From a virus, in IMG/VR virus record IMGVR_UViG_3300027741_000179, positions 1-31,296 of that record: DNA of 31,296 nucleotides; one strand, written 5' to 3'. Within the stretch, counting starts at the first letter, position 1; the number at the start of each line of letters is the position of its first letter. Below, piece after piece: positions 26,509 to 31,296 of this stretch. The notes under the pieces were generated by a model. That model did not search any database, had not been told where the DNA came from, and saw nothing but the letters and a program-made list of their open reading frames with translations. Position numbers and translations under genes: made by a program.

Positions 26509-27504
26509 ATGGCATTTTCAACAATGGGAACAGCAGGAGGGGCACTCGGAGGTGCGGCAACAGGAGCTTCAATTGGCTCTGTAGTGCCAGGTGTTGGAAC
26601 TGCTATTGGTGCTGGAGTTGGAGCTTTAATTGGAGGACTTGGTGGTTCTGGTTTGTTTGGAGGTAAATCTTCTACTCCTAGTTTTAATCCACAGCAATCA
26701 TTGCAATTTGCACAACAGGCATACAATCAAATGGCCCCAAATGCCTTGAATTATGCCGCACAACTTTATGCTCAAGCCGCAAATGAAGGTATTGATTTCG
26801 CAAAACGTGGAACAGCGGCAAATGTTTCCAATCAAGAAGTTGTAACACCAGGGTCTTCTGCACAAAGAGAAGCCGCACTTAATCAGCTTAACTCTTATAT
26901 GCAGGGGCAAGTTCCCCAAGATGTACAACAACAAATCAATAGGCAAGTTGCACAGAATCTTGGTGGTGGATTTAATCTATTTAACGGAGGTGGACAAGCC
27001 CCTCAAAACTTTGCTCGTAATCTTGGACAGACTAGCCTTGGACTTTCCCAATACGGATTGAGTGCCGCACCTACTTGGCAACAGCTTGCCAATCAGATGG
27101 TTGTATCTCCAAGTGTTGGTCTTGAAGCAGGATTGCAAGCTGGTCAACAGGGTCTGTCTTTGACCAATGCCGCAACAAGTGCAGGTTTGAACCTTGGAGA
27201 AAGTGCATATCAAGGTGCATTTAACCAGTATCAAGGACAGCAACTGCAAAATCAGTATCAAAATCAACTTGGTCTTGGATTAGGCAACCTTGGAACAGAT
27301 TTGTACAAAGCAAATACAATGTCTAATTATTACAGCAACCTTACTCCCTCTGCTCAAGGTAGATTGAATACCCTTGGCGGTCTTCCAGCCACTCAAAACC
27401 TTGATTCTCTTTCTTCTTATTATGGGAATCCCGTTGCGGGATATGTTGGACGACCTGGGACTTCATCGTTTTCTAATTTTATGACTACTGGAGGGTGGGA
27501 TTAA
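26509..27504 (+). CDS. Ejection-type protein with glycine zipper
   Basis: 331 residues. Residues 5-50 form a glycine-zipper segment (GTAGGALGGAATGASIGSVV, then GVGTAIGAGVGALIGGLGG), a pattern that inserts into membranes and forms pores. The rest is Gln/Asn/Ala/Leu-rich helix and coil (NQLNSYMQGQVPQDVQQQIN, YQGQQLQNQYQNQLGLGLGN), with a Gly-rich end. Such a protein between connector and polyvalent enzyme is typical of podovirus internal virion proteins that are injected and help build the DNA path through the envelope. It is unrelated in sequence to the T7 ejection proteins as far as I can tell. Confidence 0.65.
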   Translation: MAFSTMGTAGGALGGAATGASIGSVVPGVGTAIGAGVGALIGGLGGSGLFGGKSSTPSFNPQQSLQFAQQAYNQMAPNALNYAAQLYAQAANEGIDFAKRGTAANVSNQEVVTPGSSAQREAALNQLNSYMQGQVPQDVQQQINRQVAQNLGGGFNLFNGGGQAPQNFARNLGQTSLGLSQYGLSAAPTWQQLANQMVVSPSVGLEAGLQAGQQGLSLTNAATSAGLNLGESAYQGAFNQYQGQQLQNQYQNQLGLGLGNLGTDLYKANTMSNYYSNLTPSAQGRLNTLGGLPATQNLDSLSSYYGNPVAGYVGRPGTSSFSNFMTTGGWD

Positions 27505-27508
27505 TCAT

Positions 27509-28450
27509 ATGCCAATCGGGTACGCAAATTTTTCTACGATAAACGCCGCTAATAACCAGACGGTTAATAGCCTTGCTGGTCTTGGTCAGCAGATTGGTAA
27601 TGCAATTGAGACTCATGCCGCAACTCAATCTGCACAGGCTATGTTGCCAATGCTTCAGCAACAATATACGCAAGGATTGCAAAAGATTGCATCTGGTGAT
27701 CCGAATGGTATGTCTGATGTTTATGGTGCGGCTGTAACTGCATCTCAAAATCCATTGCTTGCTAACTTTGCAAAGAATGCCGTTACCACAGCACAATCTG
27801 CTAACATTAATGCACAACATATGTTAAGGACTCAGGCATATCTTGGTGGAAGAATTGCATCATTGTATGGTCAATATGGTTCTGGACTAATGAATCCTCC
27901 TGCTGGAATGAATCCTAATTGGGCTGGAAAACAAGCAACACCAAAAGCACCTACTGTAACAGATTTGAAAAATGCCAATGAGATGGATTCAAAACTTGCT
28001 GAAGCACAATCTCAAGCATTAAGACTTGGTGATCAACAGGCTTATGATTCTGCTACTCAACAAAGAACTGCTTTAAGAGATCAATTCCCAAACATTACGC
28101 TACCTGCTTTGTCTGGTGCAATGAGTAACTTTGATACAGCAAGTCAACTTTCTAATGCACAAAAGACACTTAAAACAGAGATGACCAAAAAGCCAAATTT
28201 CCTTGGTTTGGGAGGCCCAGATCAAACAAAAATAAAAGAGGCCAAAAATACTATCCAGCAACTTTCAAAACAGGAAAATAATGCATCTGCTGGAGCAACA
28301 AATCCAAACCAACCACAGGGTAATGACACTCAAATACAACAAGGGAATGCTACTTTTAAGTCACCAAATGATGTAAAAGCGGCTTTCCAATCTGGAAAAA
28401 TCAGTCAAGATCAAGCGGTTCAATTGCTACAAGCCTTTCCAAGTAAATGA
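27509..28450 (+). CDS. Ejection-type Gln/Ala-rich protein
   Basis: 313 residues, rich in Gln, Ala, Asn and Ser. The first 130 residues are helical, and about 155-205 continues so (ANEMDSKLAEAQSQALRLG). A Gly/Pro-rich patch (KKPNFLGLGGPDQ) follows. The end (FKSPNDVKAAFQSGKISQDQ, AVQLLQAFPSK) contains the short motif S-Q-D-Q-A-V-x-L-L, which is repeated three times in the next protein (see findings). The stop overlaps the ATG of that gene (ATGA), so both are made in a fixed ratio. Likely a virion internal protein that is ejected. Confidence 0.65.
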   Translation: MPIGYANFSTINAANNQTVNSLAGLGQQIGNAIETHAATQSAQAMLPMLQQQYTQGLQKIASGDPNGMSDVYGAAVTASQNPLLANFAKNAVTTAQSANINAQHMLRTQAYLGGRIASLYGQYGSGLMNPPAGMNPNWAGKQATPKAPTVTDLKNANEMDSKLAEAQSQALRLGDQQAYDSATQQRTALRDQFPNITLPALSGAMSNFDTASQLSNAQKTLKTEMTKKPNFLGLGGPDQTKIKEAKNTIQQLSKQENNASAGATNPNQPQGNDTQIQQGNATFKSPNDVKAAFQSGKISQDQAVQLLQAFPSK

Positions 28451-31296
28451 ACCAAAATGAAGCACTTGATTTTCTAAAAGCATCTGTACCAAATGAGTTG
28501 GGTAAACCTGCCCAACTAGAATCATTAACTCCAGATGAGGTAGGGACACAATTGGTTCCGCAAGTTCGTGCCGCTGGAATGAGCCAAGAAGATGCTTTAT
28601 CGTTCCTTGGTGTTACACCTAAAAAGAAATCTGAAAGTGTAGATTCGGATTATTTGACTTCACCAATTCCTGCGGCTCAATTGCCTCCATCTGACCCAAA
28701 TAATCTGACTTCTAATTACACGCAATCGGTTCCTCAACCTACACCGCAAACATCACAGGGGATAAGCAAAGAAGATGCTTTAGCTTTTTTGGGGGCATCA
28801 CCAGCAGAGCAGACTGCCGCACCGATTAATTTGCCAGCTATGCCTGGCTATGAAAATTACTTTAGGCAAGCCGCCGCACAAACATCCGCTGGTTTAATTA
28901 GACAAGCAGAAGGATTAGAAAGAGCATCAGCCGCACCTTTACCGACATTACCGCAACTTACTCCAGAGCTAGGGCCAGGCATTGGTGGAACAAAAGAAGA
29001 AGCAACATCTGCATTTGATCAAGCTATTGCTGATAGGCAATCGGCATTAACTTCTTTGCAAAATACAATTGCAAAAAAAGGATTTACTACAGCAGACGAT
29101 ACAATGCGTCTAAATGCTATAAAAGATGAGATTTCAAAAATTCAGTCTCAAAAGCCTATTGCTTTAGCATCAGAAGAATATACTCCAGAAGCTCAACAAC
29201 AGCTTTTAGAAAGACGCAAAGCCGCATCAGCAGAAGCTAGTCAACTTGAACAACAAGCTCAAGGAATGTTTCCTTATTTTGGAGTTAGTCCAACAGATAC
29301 TTCTTTGTCAGCACAACTTGGAAGAGGAACAGGAAGTGTTTTTTCAATGGCTCCTGCTATAGTGGGGGGATTAGTTGCTCCAGAAATTGCATTACCTGCA
29401 ATGGTTTTACAAGGTGGTAGTGAAGCCTATTCAAGCGGATACAACAATCATGTTCAAGAACTCAAACAACAGGGAGTAACTGATCAGAAAACCCTTGATA
29501 TTGAGGGTCACAAAGCTGGTAGTGCAGAGGCAATACATTCAGTTCCTGTTCTTGCCGCTTATGCTGTTGGAGGAGTACTTCCCGCAAAAGTTACAGGAGC
29601 ATTAATGAAAGGGGCTTCTCCTTTAGTAAGAGGGCTTGTCGGTGGAACTACCGCCGCTGGAGTTAATCTTGGAATCTCTGGAACCATGAGAGCAATGCAG
29701 GGGCAAAACTTCTTGCCTAATGTTGAACAAGCTGTTCCAGATTTAGCATTTGGTGGCATTGCCGCATTTCATGCAGGTATGGCTCCATCTGAAAATCCTG
29801 TAGTCAATCAAAGGGAAGCTGAAATTATCGGGAAAGCCAATGCACAGAAAGATGTGCCGCTTACTCCAGATCAAGAAAAGGTAAATCAACAATGGCAAGT
29901 GCTAAAAAAGCAAGCTACTGATGTTGCTAATCAACTTGCTGAACTTCCAGAAGATCACCCTGACCGCCCTGCTCTGCAACAAAAAGCACAAAACATTGCC
30001 AATCAAATGGCAGATTTGAGGGCTGGAAAACCTGTTGACATTAAGACAGAACAACCTCAAGGTGACGAAAGATTCCAACCCAAACCAGAAAATGCCGTTC
30101 AAGTCGAAACAACAGGAGAAGTGGGCGTTCGCAACACACCAGCCGTGGGCGAAGGAGTGGGCGAACAAAACAAACCAGAAGAGGTTACCCCGCAAGGTGA
30201 AAAGCCCAAAGAAGAAGTAGCACCAAATACTCTTTCTGAAGAAGAGGCACAAGATCCAATAGCCAAGCTAAACAAATCTACCCCTCAAAAGGATGGTAGT
30301 AATTTGTTTGAACCAGCTACTCAGGAAGAGATTGATGAGCAAAAGAAAAACCCTGTATTTATCCTTGCCGATAAACTAGCAGGTATCTTTGGGAAGAAGG
30401 TTGTTCTATACAGGGCAAAGGAGGGAAGGGTAATCAACGGAGCAGTCAACAGGGGAATGAAGGAATACATTTTCCTTAATGTTGATGGAAGCCGTCCTCA
30501 TCTATTTACTGCTGGTCACGAACTATGGCACAGCATTGAAGTCAATTCTCCAGAGCTTTATAAATCCCTACGCAAAGAACTAGAAGCTCTTGTTAAAGAT
30601 AGGGCTGGACTTGAAGCAAAGTATCGACCTGCTGGTTACAGACCAGAGAGATATGTTGATGAACATATTGGTGACTTACTTGGTGATGCATTACAAGACC
30701 CTGACTTCTGGAACAAACTAGCAGATAGAAATCCAGAGGCATTCAAGTCATTGGCAGAGAAGACCATTGATTGGTTGAACAGCGTAATTGATAAGCTCAA
30801 GGGATGGGCTATGGGTGGTGGTGAGCATACAAGGGATCTTGAGAAGGCAAGGAATATGCTTGCTGATGGGTTGAATAACTTTGCCAAGGGTAAAGATGAA
30901 CCTGTTGCTTACCCTCCTGAGACACCGAGCGAAACTTTCTATCAACAGGAAGCAGAAAAGGTGGATGAAAAATATTCGCAACTTGAGAAAAATTACAAAA
31001 ATGGTGATGAATCTGCAAAAAAAGAAGCTGAAAAAATATTAGATGAAAAAGCATTAAGAAGTAAGCCATATGTAATTGGGCCTATTTATCATTGGAGTAA
31101 AACAAATAATGCTTTTAGGGTATTTGATATTTCAAAAGGAAGAGAAGGATTCCATTTTGGAACCGAAGGAGCCGCAAATCAAGTAAGGGTTGCTCAAAGA
31201 AAAGCAGAAAGATGGGGAGAACCTAAAGTAAAAGGAGAAGATTATAAGGTTTATATAATGTCTGATCATAAACCAATTCGCATAACCGACAGCGAA
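28447..31296 (+). CDS. Polyvalent ejected virion protein, metallopeptidase and ART-like (partial, runs off right edge)
   Basis: Open for 950 codons with no stop before the window end. Residues 1-120 are a low-complexity front with three copies of an E-(D/A)-A-L-x-F-L motif (4-11, 48-55, 109-116). About 150-260 is helical. Hydrophobic Ala/Gly-rich segments lie near 297-320 and 355-410. A charged linker spans 530-600. HELWH at 691-695 with D738-E739 downstream is a zinc peptidase centre. From about 873, KPYVIGPIYHWSKTNNAFRV and FDISKGREGFHFGTEGAANQ resemble the ADP-ribosyltransferase domain of phage polyvalent proteins (H882 in YHWS as first catalytic-type residue). Such proteins are injected with DNA and modify host targets. 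The remaining ART residues lie beyond the window. Confidence 0.75.
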   Translation, partial: MNQNEALDFLKASVPNELGKPAQLESLTPDEVGTQLVPQVRAAGMSQEDALSFLGVTPKKKSESVDSDYLTSPIPAAQLPPSDPNNLTSNYTQSVPQPTPQTSQGISKEDALAFLGASPAEQTAAPINLPAMPGYENYFRQAAAQTSAGLIRQAEGLERASAAPLPTLPQLTPELGPGIGGTKEEATSAFDQAIADRQSALTSLQNTIAKKGFTTADDTMRLNAIKDEISKIQSQKPIALASEEYTPEAQQQLLERRKAASAEASQLEQQAQGMFPYFGVSPTDTSLSAQLGRGTGSVFSMAPAIVGGLVAPEIALPAMVLQGGSEAYSSGYNNHVQELKQQGVTDQKTLDIEGHKAGSAEAIHSVPVLAAYAVGGVLPAKVTGALMKGASPLVRGLVGGTTAAGVNLGISGTMRAMQGQNFLPNVEQAVPDLAFGGIAAFHAGMAPSENPVVNQREAEIIGKANAQKDVPLTPDQEKVNQQWQVLKKQATDVANQLAELPEDHPDRPALQQKAQNIANQMADLRAGKPVDIKTEQPQGDERFQPKPENAVQVETTGEVGVRNTPAVGEGVGEQNKPEEVTPQGEKPKEEVAPNTLSEEEAQDPIAKLNKSTPQKDGSNLFEPATQEEIDEQKKNPVFILADKLAGIFGKKVVLYRAKEGRVINGAVNRGMKEYIFLNVDGSRPHLFTAGHELWHSIEVNSPELYKSLRKELEALVKDRAGLEAKYRPAGYRPERYVDEHIGDLLGDALQDPDFWNKLADRNPEAFKSLAEKTIDWLNSVIDKLKGWAMGGGEHTRDLEKARNMLADGLNNFAKGKDEPVAYPPETPSETFYQQEAEKVDEKYSQLEKNYKNGDESAKKEAEKILDEKALRSKPYVIGPIYHWSKTNNAFRVFDISKGREGFHFGTEGAANQVRVAQRKAERWGEPKVKGEDYKVYIMSDHKPIRITDSE
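30092..30220 (+). CDS. Overprinted small basic protein inside the polyvalent gene
   Basis: In the +1 frame relative to the host gene, ATG 30092 to TAG 30218-30220 encodes 42 residues beginning MPFKSKQQEKWAFATHQPWA, continuing KEWANKTNQKRLP, and ending in a Lys-rich tail. From memory this follows the layout of a widespread short phage protein: MPFKSK-x-Q-x(2)-W-x-FA, then a (P)-x(2)-AKEW-x(3)-T, then LP-x-(K/R)-V and a Lys tail. The host frame here is a low-complexity linker (GVRNTPAVGEGVGEQNKPEE) with locally high G+C. No strong ribosome site is seen. A longer in-frame opening at 30035 exists, but the family start is at 30092. Confidence 0.55.
   Translation: MPFKSKQQEKWAFATHQPWAKEWANKTNQKRLPRKVKSPKKK

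Follow-up and report, generated by a model that had tools for sequence, protein, structure and literature searches.

The closest described counterparts of the system reported here are the neighbouring ejection proteins of short-tailed phages, gp15 and gp16 of T7 and gp20 and gp16 of P22. To our knowledge, it is not settled how ejection proteins meet in the head and reassemble in the periplasm in the right order and number. We analysed a 31,296-nucleotide stretch of virus DNA (IMG/VR record IMGVR_UViG_3300027741_000179; this whole stretch is called the window), in which a 313-residue protein (the 27509 protein, after its first base) is followed by a very large one (the giant, from 28447). The first ends in a tail predicted to be a helical mini-domain, and the second starts with an array of repeated short motifs. 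We favour, with moderate confidence, the reading that in short-tailed phages such tails and arrays serve as interchangeable docking pairs of neighbouring ejection proteins, with the upstream tail docking onto the downstream motif array.

In T7, similarly, the large protein uses an N-terminal part to bind the product of the gene just before it, the tunnel protein: residues 157-228 of gp16 (a 'molecular tape') cement gp15, and gp16 stabilises the C-termini of gp15 (PMC8954989; all papers cited here are drawn on from excerpts). Unlike the window's array, this is one extended segment after the lytic domain, and the excerpt mentions no repeated short motif or exchangeable tail. The gp15:gp16 ratio is 8:4 (PMC12633501, a preprint). 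P22 has the same gene order as the window (gp7-gp20-gp16) and a gp20:gp16 ratio of ~30:12 (PMC8402733). The C-terminus of its gp20 is essential: virions are non-functional when gp20 is shortened by 33 or 66 residues (PMC10883804). Genes 16 and 20 are mosaic and among the most variable of P22-like virion genes (PMC10883804).

Four related peptides in two adjacent proteins

A first-pass annotation of the window had reported four similar peptides, one at the end of the 27509 protein and three in the giant. We found all four where it had placed them (Table 1). For the array, the best three-copy 8-mer in giant residues 1-250 scored 75, against a maximum of 68 in 60 composition-matched shuffles, and the same score in two other 250-residue windows of the giant was 52 and 49. 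As all 60 shuffles were exceeded, the array is beyond chance. The tail copy is weaker. Its score was reached by 2 of 2000 shuffles of the last 45 residues (2-25 of 2000 across six proteins of its class), and it was the best array-motif match among the window's forward open reading frames (ORFs) outside the giant. However, an unrelated 120-residue ORF of the window scored 19.0 against 19.7 for the tail peptide, so the likeness of tail and array is by itself no proof of one motif copied. It is conservation and co-inheritance that make this case.

A regular expression for the motif, run over forward ORFs of at least 60 residues in the window and loci L082-L139, matched only at these two gene positions, and the portal held no copy. 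A looser expression added two sites, both deep inside proteins of other classes (L097 residue 256; L130/L132/L133 residue 1169).

The pattern of a hydrophobic residue, an S/N cap, an acidic residue and A-L-x-F-L is a common helix N-cap form. The peptides might thus be generic helix starts that resemble each other by chance, and the unrelated ORF that scores nearly as high as the tail peptide fits this. We regard it as extremely improbable for the whole pattern, given the three-copy score, the four sites in six distinct proteins and the low ratio of nonsynonymous to synonymous polymorphism (pN/pS) described below. Chance is already refuted for the three array copies, but may still account for the tail-to-array likeness alone.

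Conservation and replacement of the motif in related phages

The search of related phages that the annotation had proposed bore the motif out. All four sites are kept in six distinct proteins (the window's and those of L117, L116, L138, L106 and L108), a motif type that we call class A. Array copies stand at giant residues 1, 45 and 80-121, and the small protein carries I[ST]xxQA[VI]QLL 16 residues before its C terminus. The A, F and L of xxxxxAxxFL are invariant in all 18 array copies. Among the four closest sequences, pN/pS was 0.09 over 30 motif codons, in comparison to 0.33 for linker codons; with all six it was 0.23 and 0.58, respectively.

In 16 of 22 representatives (loci with the small protein cut by a contig end, or with no downstream ORF, were excluded) the giant starts with a different short peptide: NPFADLIP, DPFADLIP, DPFADLYP, DPFADLPN, NPFDSLPD, DPFADIP, NVYEQFL/NPYAQF or GLFDDLL. 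Fourteen of these 16 have three copies, and L133 and L122 have two. The first copy begins within the first six residues in each of the 22. The best three-copy 8-mer beat all 60 shuffles in 19 of the 22, one of which (L138) won with a low-complexity ATPQ repeat. It was equalled or beaten in L114 (1 of 60 shuffles; the third copy is at 379, beyond the 250 residues tested), L122 (2 of 60) and L133 (6 of 60). The annotation had described a single shared helical motif; the repeat is real, but it is one of several interchangeable types.

Class A looks limited to this clade. When viral sequences were scanned with the N-terminal motif of the window, 82 stretches with 77 matching frames resulted; only six of these frames had repeats, and their N-termini were identical to known clade members over the part compared. 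With the giant as query against viral contigs, none of six pattern matches was confirmed. The capsid protein search covered the best 80 of 196 related stretches, with flanks of at most 10 kb that should stop before the giant's place, and the window's capsid protein had no match among isolate phages. A tblastn search of isolate phages with the full L106 giant gave partial matches in five records (four phages), with no N-terminal array by eye in one record per phage.

The tail domain and its joint exchange with the array

AlphaFold2 modelled the 27509 protein as all helix, with low overall confidence (mean predicted local distance difference test score, pLDDT, 67.7; predicted template modelling score, pTM, 0.31). 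The tail was the most confident part, with block means of 83, 91 and 88 for residues 281-310, after a linker (262-280) with pLDDT below 50. Foldseek found no PDB match to this model at E 0.001. The KYG tail of the comparable pairs described below, modelled alone, formed three short helices (mean pLDDT 80; block means 84-92 over residues 11-40). A PDB sequence search with the tail and a Foldseek search with the KYG tail model both gave nothing significant. These models suggest that the tail is an autonomous folded mini-domain, more receptor-like than a linear ligand. The earlier idea of the tail peptide as merely a fourth linear copy does not agree with this, since in the model it is part of an autonomous helical hairpin.

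Among the 22 representatives, the small protein is conserved over its first 110 residues (44-94% identical), and the remainder is much more variable. In four class A proteins (the window's, L117, L116 and L138) the middle part is nearest to a protein of another class (L121, L109, L136 and L133; 39-52%), and over the last 44 aligned residues the four share 77-86% identity. The L106 head is 94% identical to that of L109 (NVYEQFL class), yet its tail is of class A. The L106 and L108 tails are 48-57% identical to the other four, and these two proteins are also alike in the middle part. For all six class A proteins the nearest tail lies within the class. Tail and motif array move together between different protein backbones.

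We also considered the protein encoded upstream (the 26509 protein), which has no copy of the motif, as the class-specific partner. Its nearest relative was of the same motif class in only 6 of 22 representatives (2 of 6 in the window's class), and its copies in L109 and L097 are 98.8% identical although the motifs of these two phages differ. We therefore rejected this candidate, which the annotation had put forward, as unlikely. Between L109 and L097 both the motif class and the giant N terminus differ, which marks a sharp recombination boundary between neighbouring ejection genes.

The annotation had the two proteins bind a common partner. In that version, tail and array would be similar ligands of a third protein (the portal barrel or some other component of the core), packaged next to each other without contact. 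The class A tail helix does resemble the array motif, as expected of two ligands of one pocket, and the P22 gp20 end GIKFTV and gp16 start GKTFNF are alike by eye. However, the 26509 protein does not track motif class, the likeness between the KYG tail and the NPFDxFD array is slight, and the modelled tail is a folded domain, more like a receptor. We consider this explanation unlikely.

Comparable tail-array pairs outside the clade

The scans for NPFDxFD, for the tail and for FPDGT were samples, in which sequences were made distinct by their ends and related phages remain; the counts of pairs in this section are among the matches listed. A scan of viral contigs for M-x-x-N-P-F-D-x-F-D gave at least 73 distinct starts, 33 with two or three copies (counting (N/D/S/G)P-type motifs only). 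Complete array proteins were mostly ~540-1500 residues long; short MVTNPFD/MVVNPFD proteins (mostly ~110 residues, one copy) and complete ORFs below 300 residues were left out of the counts of upstream tails. Of 40 directly upstream genes, 37 ended AIxxLxxNPxLxxxFDxKYGxGAAxxxL or ...KYGYLPDG; among other frames with 150 residues or more, the count was 2 of 284. In the three exceptions, a small gene was inserted and the tail lay one gene further upstream.

The converse scan, from the tail alone, gave the same picture. The tail lay within 20 residues of the C terminus in 107 of 109 distinct cases. Where a downstream ORF was present by the rule used, an array motif occurred in its first 12 residues in 87 of 101, and 80 had at least two copies in 250 residues (70 of the 87 had two). 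In control ORFs the motif occurred in 4 of 462 and multiple copies in 1 of 462. For the remaining 14 tails, the motif was at a gene 217-840 bases further down in seven, and three had two copies each after an N-terminal module (residues 160-206). Six tails had no qualifying ORF, and in four of them the motif lay on a cut or more distant frame. In total, an array motif followed the tail in 101 of 107; the further-down search had no control and sought the first motif only, not copy number. The regular expressions were widened after misses had been seen; the later figures are descriptive, and the controls used the widened forms. With the stricter forms, the counts were 25 of 39 from NPFD start to tail (control 4 of 246) and 57 of 94 from tail to array. 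The KYG tail residues F, D, K, Y, G, G, A and A were fixed by the search pattern, so they are no evidence of conservation.

By blastp grouping at E 1e-5, the downstream bodies formed 22 groups (80 sequences) and the upstream ones 31 (78 sequences). This bears on hitch-hiking, in which the gene junction is a recombination seam and the ends are inherited together with no functional tie. Ejection-protein genes are known to be mosaic (PMC8954989, PMC10883804), and a common seam, EQTGKxINLPA, follows the arrays of several classes. Hitch-hiking explains poorly the same tail and array on so many groups of bodies, the pairing across an inserted gene, and the stronger constraint on motifs than on linkers, and we judge it quite improbable.

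PHROGs gave no match for the NPFDQFD proteins tried; two of the five references were of poor quality, the first being truncated and the second a wrong 20-residue stretch. Two of three KYG tails (L302 and L272) weakly matched Pfam T3SS_HrpK1, a type III secretion translocator family, at E 0.01 and 0.02, far below cut-off. In Pam1 (gp15, L450:4290-4439), L259, L275 and L233, the tail and array genes have a small gene precisely between them (some of these end ATGPHWH(F/V)V), and the tail then carries a short extension, often ending like GGFP. A separate family of ~110 residues starting MVTNPFDTFDIQANAT has one copy (e.g. L227, L235) and is outside the array counts. A module 'GNID..RPVVRN.DGSISTVRSMS...LIPTVS.DGRIMSNDEA', common to L097, L279, L287 and L453 (Aeromonas phage 4_4512), adjoins or separates NPFDQFD/DPFADL-type motifs.

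Named phages and the P22 type

A 35-residue tail query matched 15 isolate records, and the pairing was present in all six that were opened. The tail closes the gp20-type protein (Pfam Inj_translocase) of Shigella phage Sf101 and the corresponding protein of Aeromonas phage 4_4512, coliphage IME_EC2, Shewanella phage ZP9, Pseudanabaena phage Pam1 and phage DSL-LC05. In these six, NPFDQFD, NIFDQFD, NFFDQFD or NPFAQF stands near the start of the large gene that follows. The tail match is weak for Sf101 and IME_EC2 (E about 5), and its weight lies in the C-terminal place before the partner gene. Sf101 belongs to the same genus as P22 and has a KYG-type tail (RYGYLP) with a single NPFAQL after the lytic domain (170 residues viewed).

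P22 gp20 shares residues 1-249 with the Sf101 family (PHROG 2534), but ends SGIKFTVE, and P22 gp16 starts MKVTANGKTFNFPDGTS, a single FPDGT-type N-terminal segment, with no array of this kind by eye. P22 thus differs in having this segment and end in place of an array and a helical tail. It is alike in that P22-type tails and gp16 starts pair by class: among at least 54 distinct pairs from the FPDGT scan, a GKTFxFPDGT start went with an SGIxFxV end in 43 of 45 matches listed, and a GPDGSxFxFPDGT-like start with a YxYN/NYVW-like end in 5 of 6, the sixth being alike by eye. The two GKTFxFPDGT exceptions were L477, which ends SGNKITFTVE, and L546, whose upstream frame has no SGIxFxV end. A Fisher test on these pairs overstates the association, since the end types were defined post hoc and many pairs are close relatives. 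The SGIxFxV-like ends in 84 of 1270 frames include the positives, and this figure, being no control, was not used.

The late gene block and the giant

The late block runs 25462, 26509, 27509 and the giant, with an overlap of 4 bases (ATGA) between the last two genes. By order and size, the last three would correspond to T7 gp14/gp15/gp16 or P22 gp7/gp20/gp16, an analogy by position, and Sf101, 4_4512 and IME_EC2 have a comparable gene order. The 27509 gene lies between the gp14/gp7-like and the gp16-like genes, and the giant is a large protein encoded directly downstream of the putative tunnel protein. Both proteins are probably carried in the virion and injected into the host together with the DNA. 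Neither the 27509 protein nor the window part of the giant had a Pfam match above cut-off or a convincing PHROGs match, and Pfam glycine-zipper models hit the 26509 protein only below cut-off. The 27509 protein did not match Pfam Inj_translocase or PHROG 917/2534, whereas Sf101 gp20 does. It is therefore filed as working like gp15/gp20, not as a member of that family.

Table 1. Features of the window (positions count from its first base)
Feature	Position	Strand	Remarks
Whole stretch	1-31,296		virus record IMGVR_UViG_3300027741_000179
331-residue protein	26509..27504	+	glycine-zipper-like N-terminal segment; T7 gp14 / P22 gp7-like ejection protein by position
313-residue protein	27509..28450	+	T7 gp15 / P22 gp20-like ejection protein by position
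C-terminal docking tail (putative)	28349..28447	+	residues 281-313; predicted helical hairpin H286-294 + H300-308
Tail peptide ISQDQAVQLL	28400..28429	+	residues 298-307 of the 313-residue protein; fourth, divergent motif
Giant, first 950 residues	28447..31296	+	gp16-like ejection protein by position; cut by window end
Array copy 1, MNQNEALDFL	28447..28476	+	giant residues 1-10
Array copy 2, MSQEDALSFL	28579..28608	+	giant residues 45-54
Array copy 3, ISKEDALAFL	28762..28791	+	giant residues 106-115
Seam after array, AEQTAAPINLPAM	28804..28842	+	window version; common to arrays of several classes
HELWH	30517..30531	+	zincin-like HExxH signature as described for polyvalent proteins; sequence, no Pfam match

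Complete homologues of the giant's class have 2426-2504 residues. Pfam showed no peptidoglycan-degrading module near the N terminus in the window part. In one of six sister giants scanned, that of L119 (6232-12327), a glucosaminidase domain (Pfam PF01832) separates the first two motif copies, as though exchangeable modules could be slotted into the array. The stretches between copies 1 and 2 differ among the giants of L119, L136, L126, L113, L128 and L097 (N-terminal 200 residues), and those other than L119 had no profile match in the ones scanned. The seam is commonest in relatives as EQTGKxINLPA; this form (also GPxGExLNLPP) occurs right after arrays and at a few later places in sister giants. 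The end of the visible giant (31060-31296, YHWSKTNNAFRVFD..GREGFHFGTEGAANQV..) has an ADP-ribosyltransferase-type look by eye, with no Pfam match.

The giant resembles the polyvalent proteins (Iyer et al. 2017, PMC5512222) in its great size, its place near virion genes and its zincin-like signature; for these proteins the excerpt mentions neither short linear motifs nor docking to the product of an upstream gene. Polyvalent proteins carry several effector domains; no Pfam domain was above cut-off in the window part or in five of the six other giants, and L119 had one. The giant was therefore not filed among them. The HELWH signature raises another possibility, in which the phage's own metallopeptidase would read the repeats, as sites of proteolytic processing or as an encapsidation signal, and the tail would have nothing to do with them. 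The L119 domain between copies would fit this, and P1 DdrB is processed before packaging (PMC5512222). Such processing does not predict an association with the upstream tail, and we hold it to be very improbable.

Discussion

In the docking model that we favour, the upstream gp15/gp20-like protein would be a periplasmic-tunnel subunit with a flexible linker and a small helical tail domain at its end. The downstream gp16-like giant would carry N-terminal peptide copies, mostly two or three, spaced by flexible linkers. Each peptide would bind one tail, so that one giant would gather two or three tunnel subunits in the virion core, and the same gathering would be repeated when the channel is rebuilt in the periplasm. 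Direct contact of tail and array, its stoichiometry and its timing are what we infer from this arrangement. Conservation, copy number, co-inheritance and the wide recurrence of comparable motifs support the annotation's idea of a docking motif that joins two neighbouring ejection-type proteins; the likeliest partner, however, is the neighbouring ejection protein and not the 26509 protein. Virions contain tunnel protein and gp16 in a ratio close to the motif number (two or three). For P22 the agreement is suggestive at most, as P22 shows no array by eye.

Several points weigh against this model. Direct binding of tail and motif is a prediction from sequences and models. Joint exchange alone does not require contact, since the ends of neighbouring genes are linked, and such linkage could explain the pairing in part. 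A single tail type (KYG) is found with several arrays (NPFDQFD, NFFDQFD, NVFDSIP, APWE), so any docking code would be loose. Six tails among the matches listed are without an array (L351, L386, L392, L422, L439, L445): in L351 and L445 fewer than 30 bases follow before the sequence ends, in L386 and L422 there is room enough, and the only motif matches in L439 are at residues 49 and 72. A single array copy was found in 7 of the 87 giants among these matches (regular expression, 250 residues). DPF-type classes in the window's clade mostly end in an acidic stretch with a helical segment matched by eye only, and no clear C-terminal tail domain. Class A, being found only in its clade, is tied to the KYG/NPFD system by arrangement and not by sequence. 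The 33-residue truncation of P22 gp20 may act otherwise than through gp16.

A wider version of the docking model, a general exchangeable code in podovirus-type phages in which tails read arrays, motif number sets the subunits per giant and the array is a portable loading tag for almost any large effector, is possible but doubtful. In modular megasynthases, docking domains likewise match a C-terminal element of one protein in type with an N-terminal element of the next, and thereby order adjacent gene products. The analogy is one of principle only, as sequences and purpose are unrelated. In the open-access literature we found no paper on NPFD/DPFAD-type or KYG-type peptide strings, nor on short linear motifs in phage ejection proteins; subscription work (e.g. 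Casjens and Thuman-Commike 2011) was outside the scope. Ejection proteins and their mosaicism are known, but as far as open-access searches go, a class-specific tail-and-array docking system has not been described.

A short portable pair of tail and motif is a direct handle that can be deleted, swapped and counted, and the tail-array signature can serve to find candidate injected proteins in unannotated phage genomes. If true, docking of this kind would explain how fast-evolving mosaic proteins stay compatible while their bodies are exchanged. As comparable tail-array pairs turn up in many phages that are otherwise unrelated, we suggest that the DNA-injection channel is built by a plug-and-socket system.

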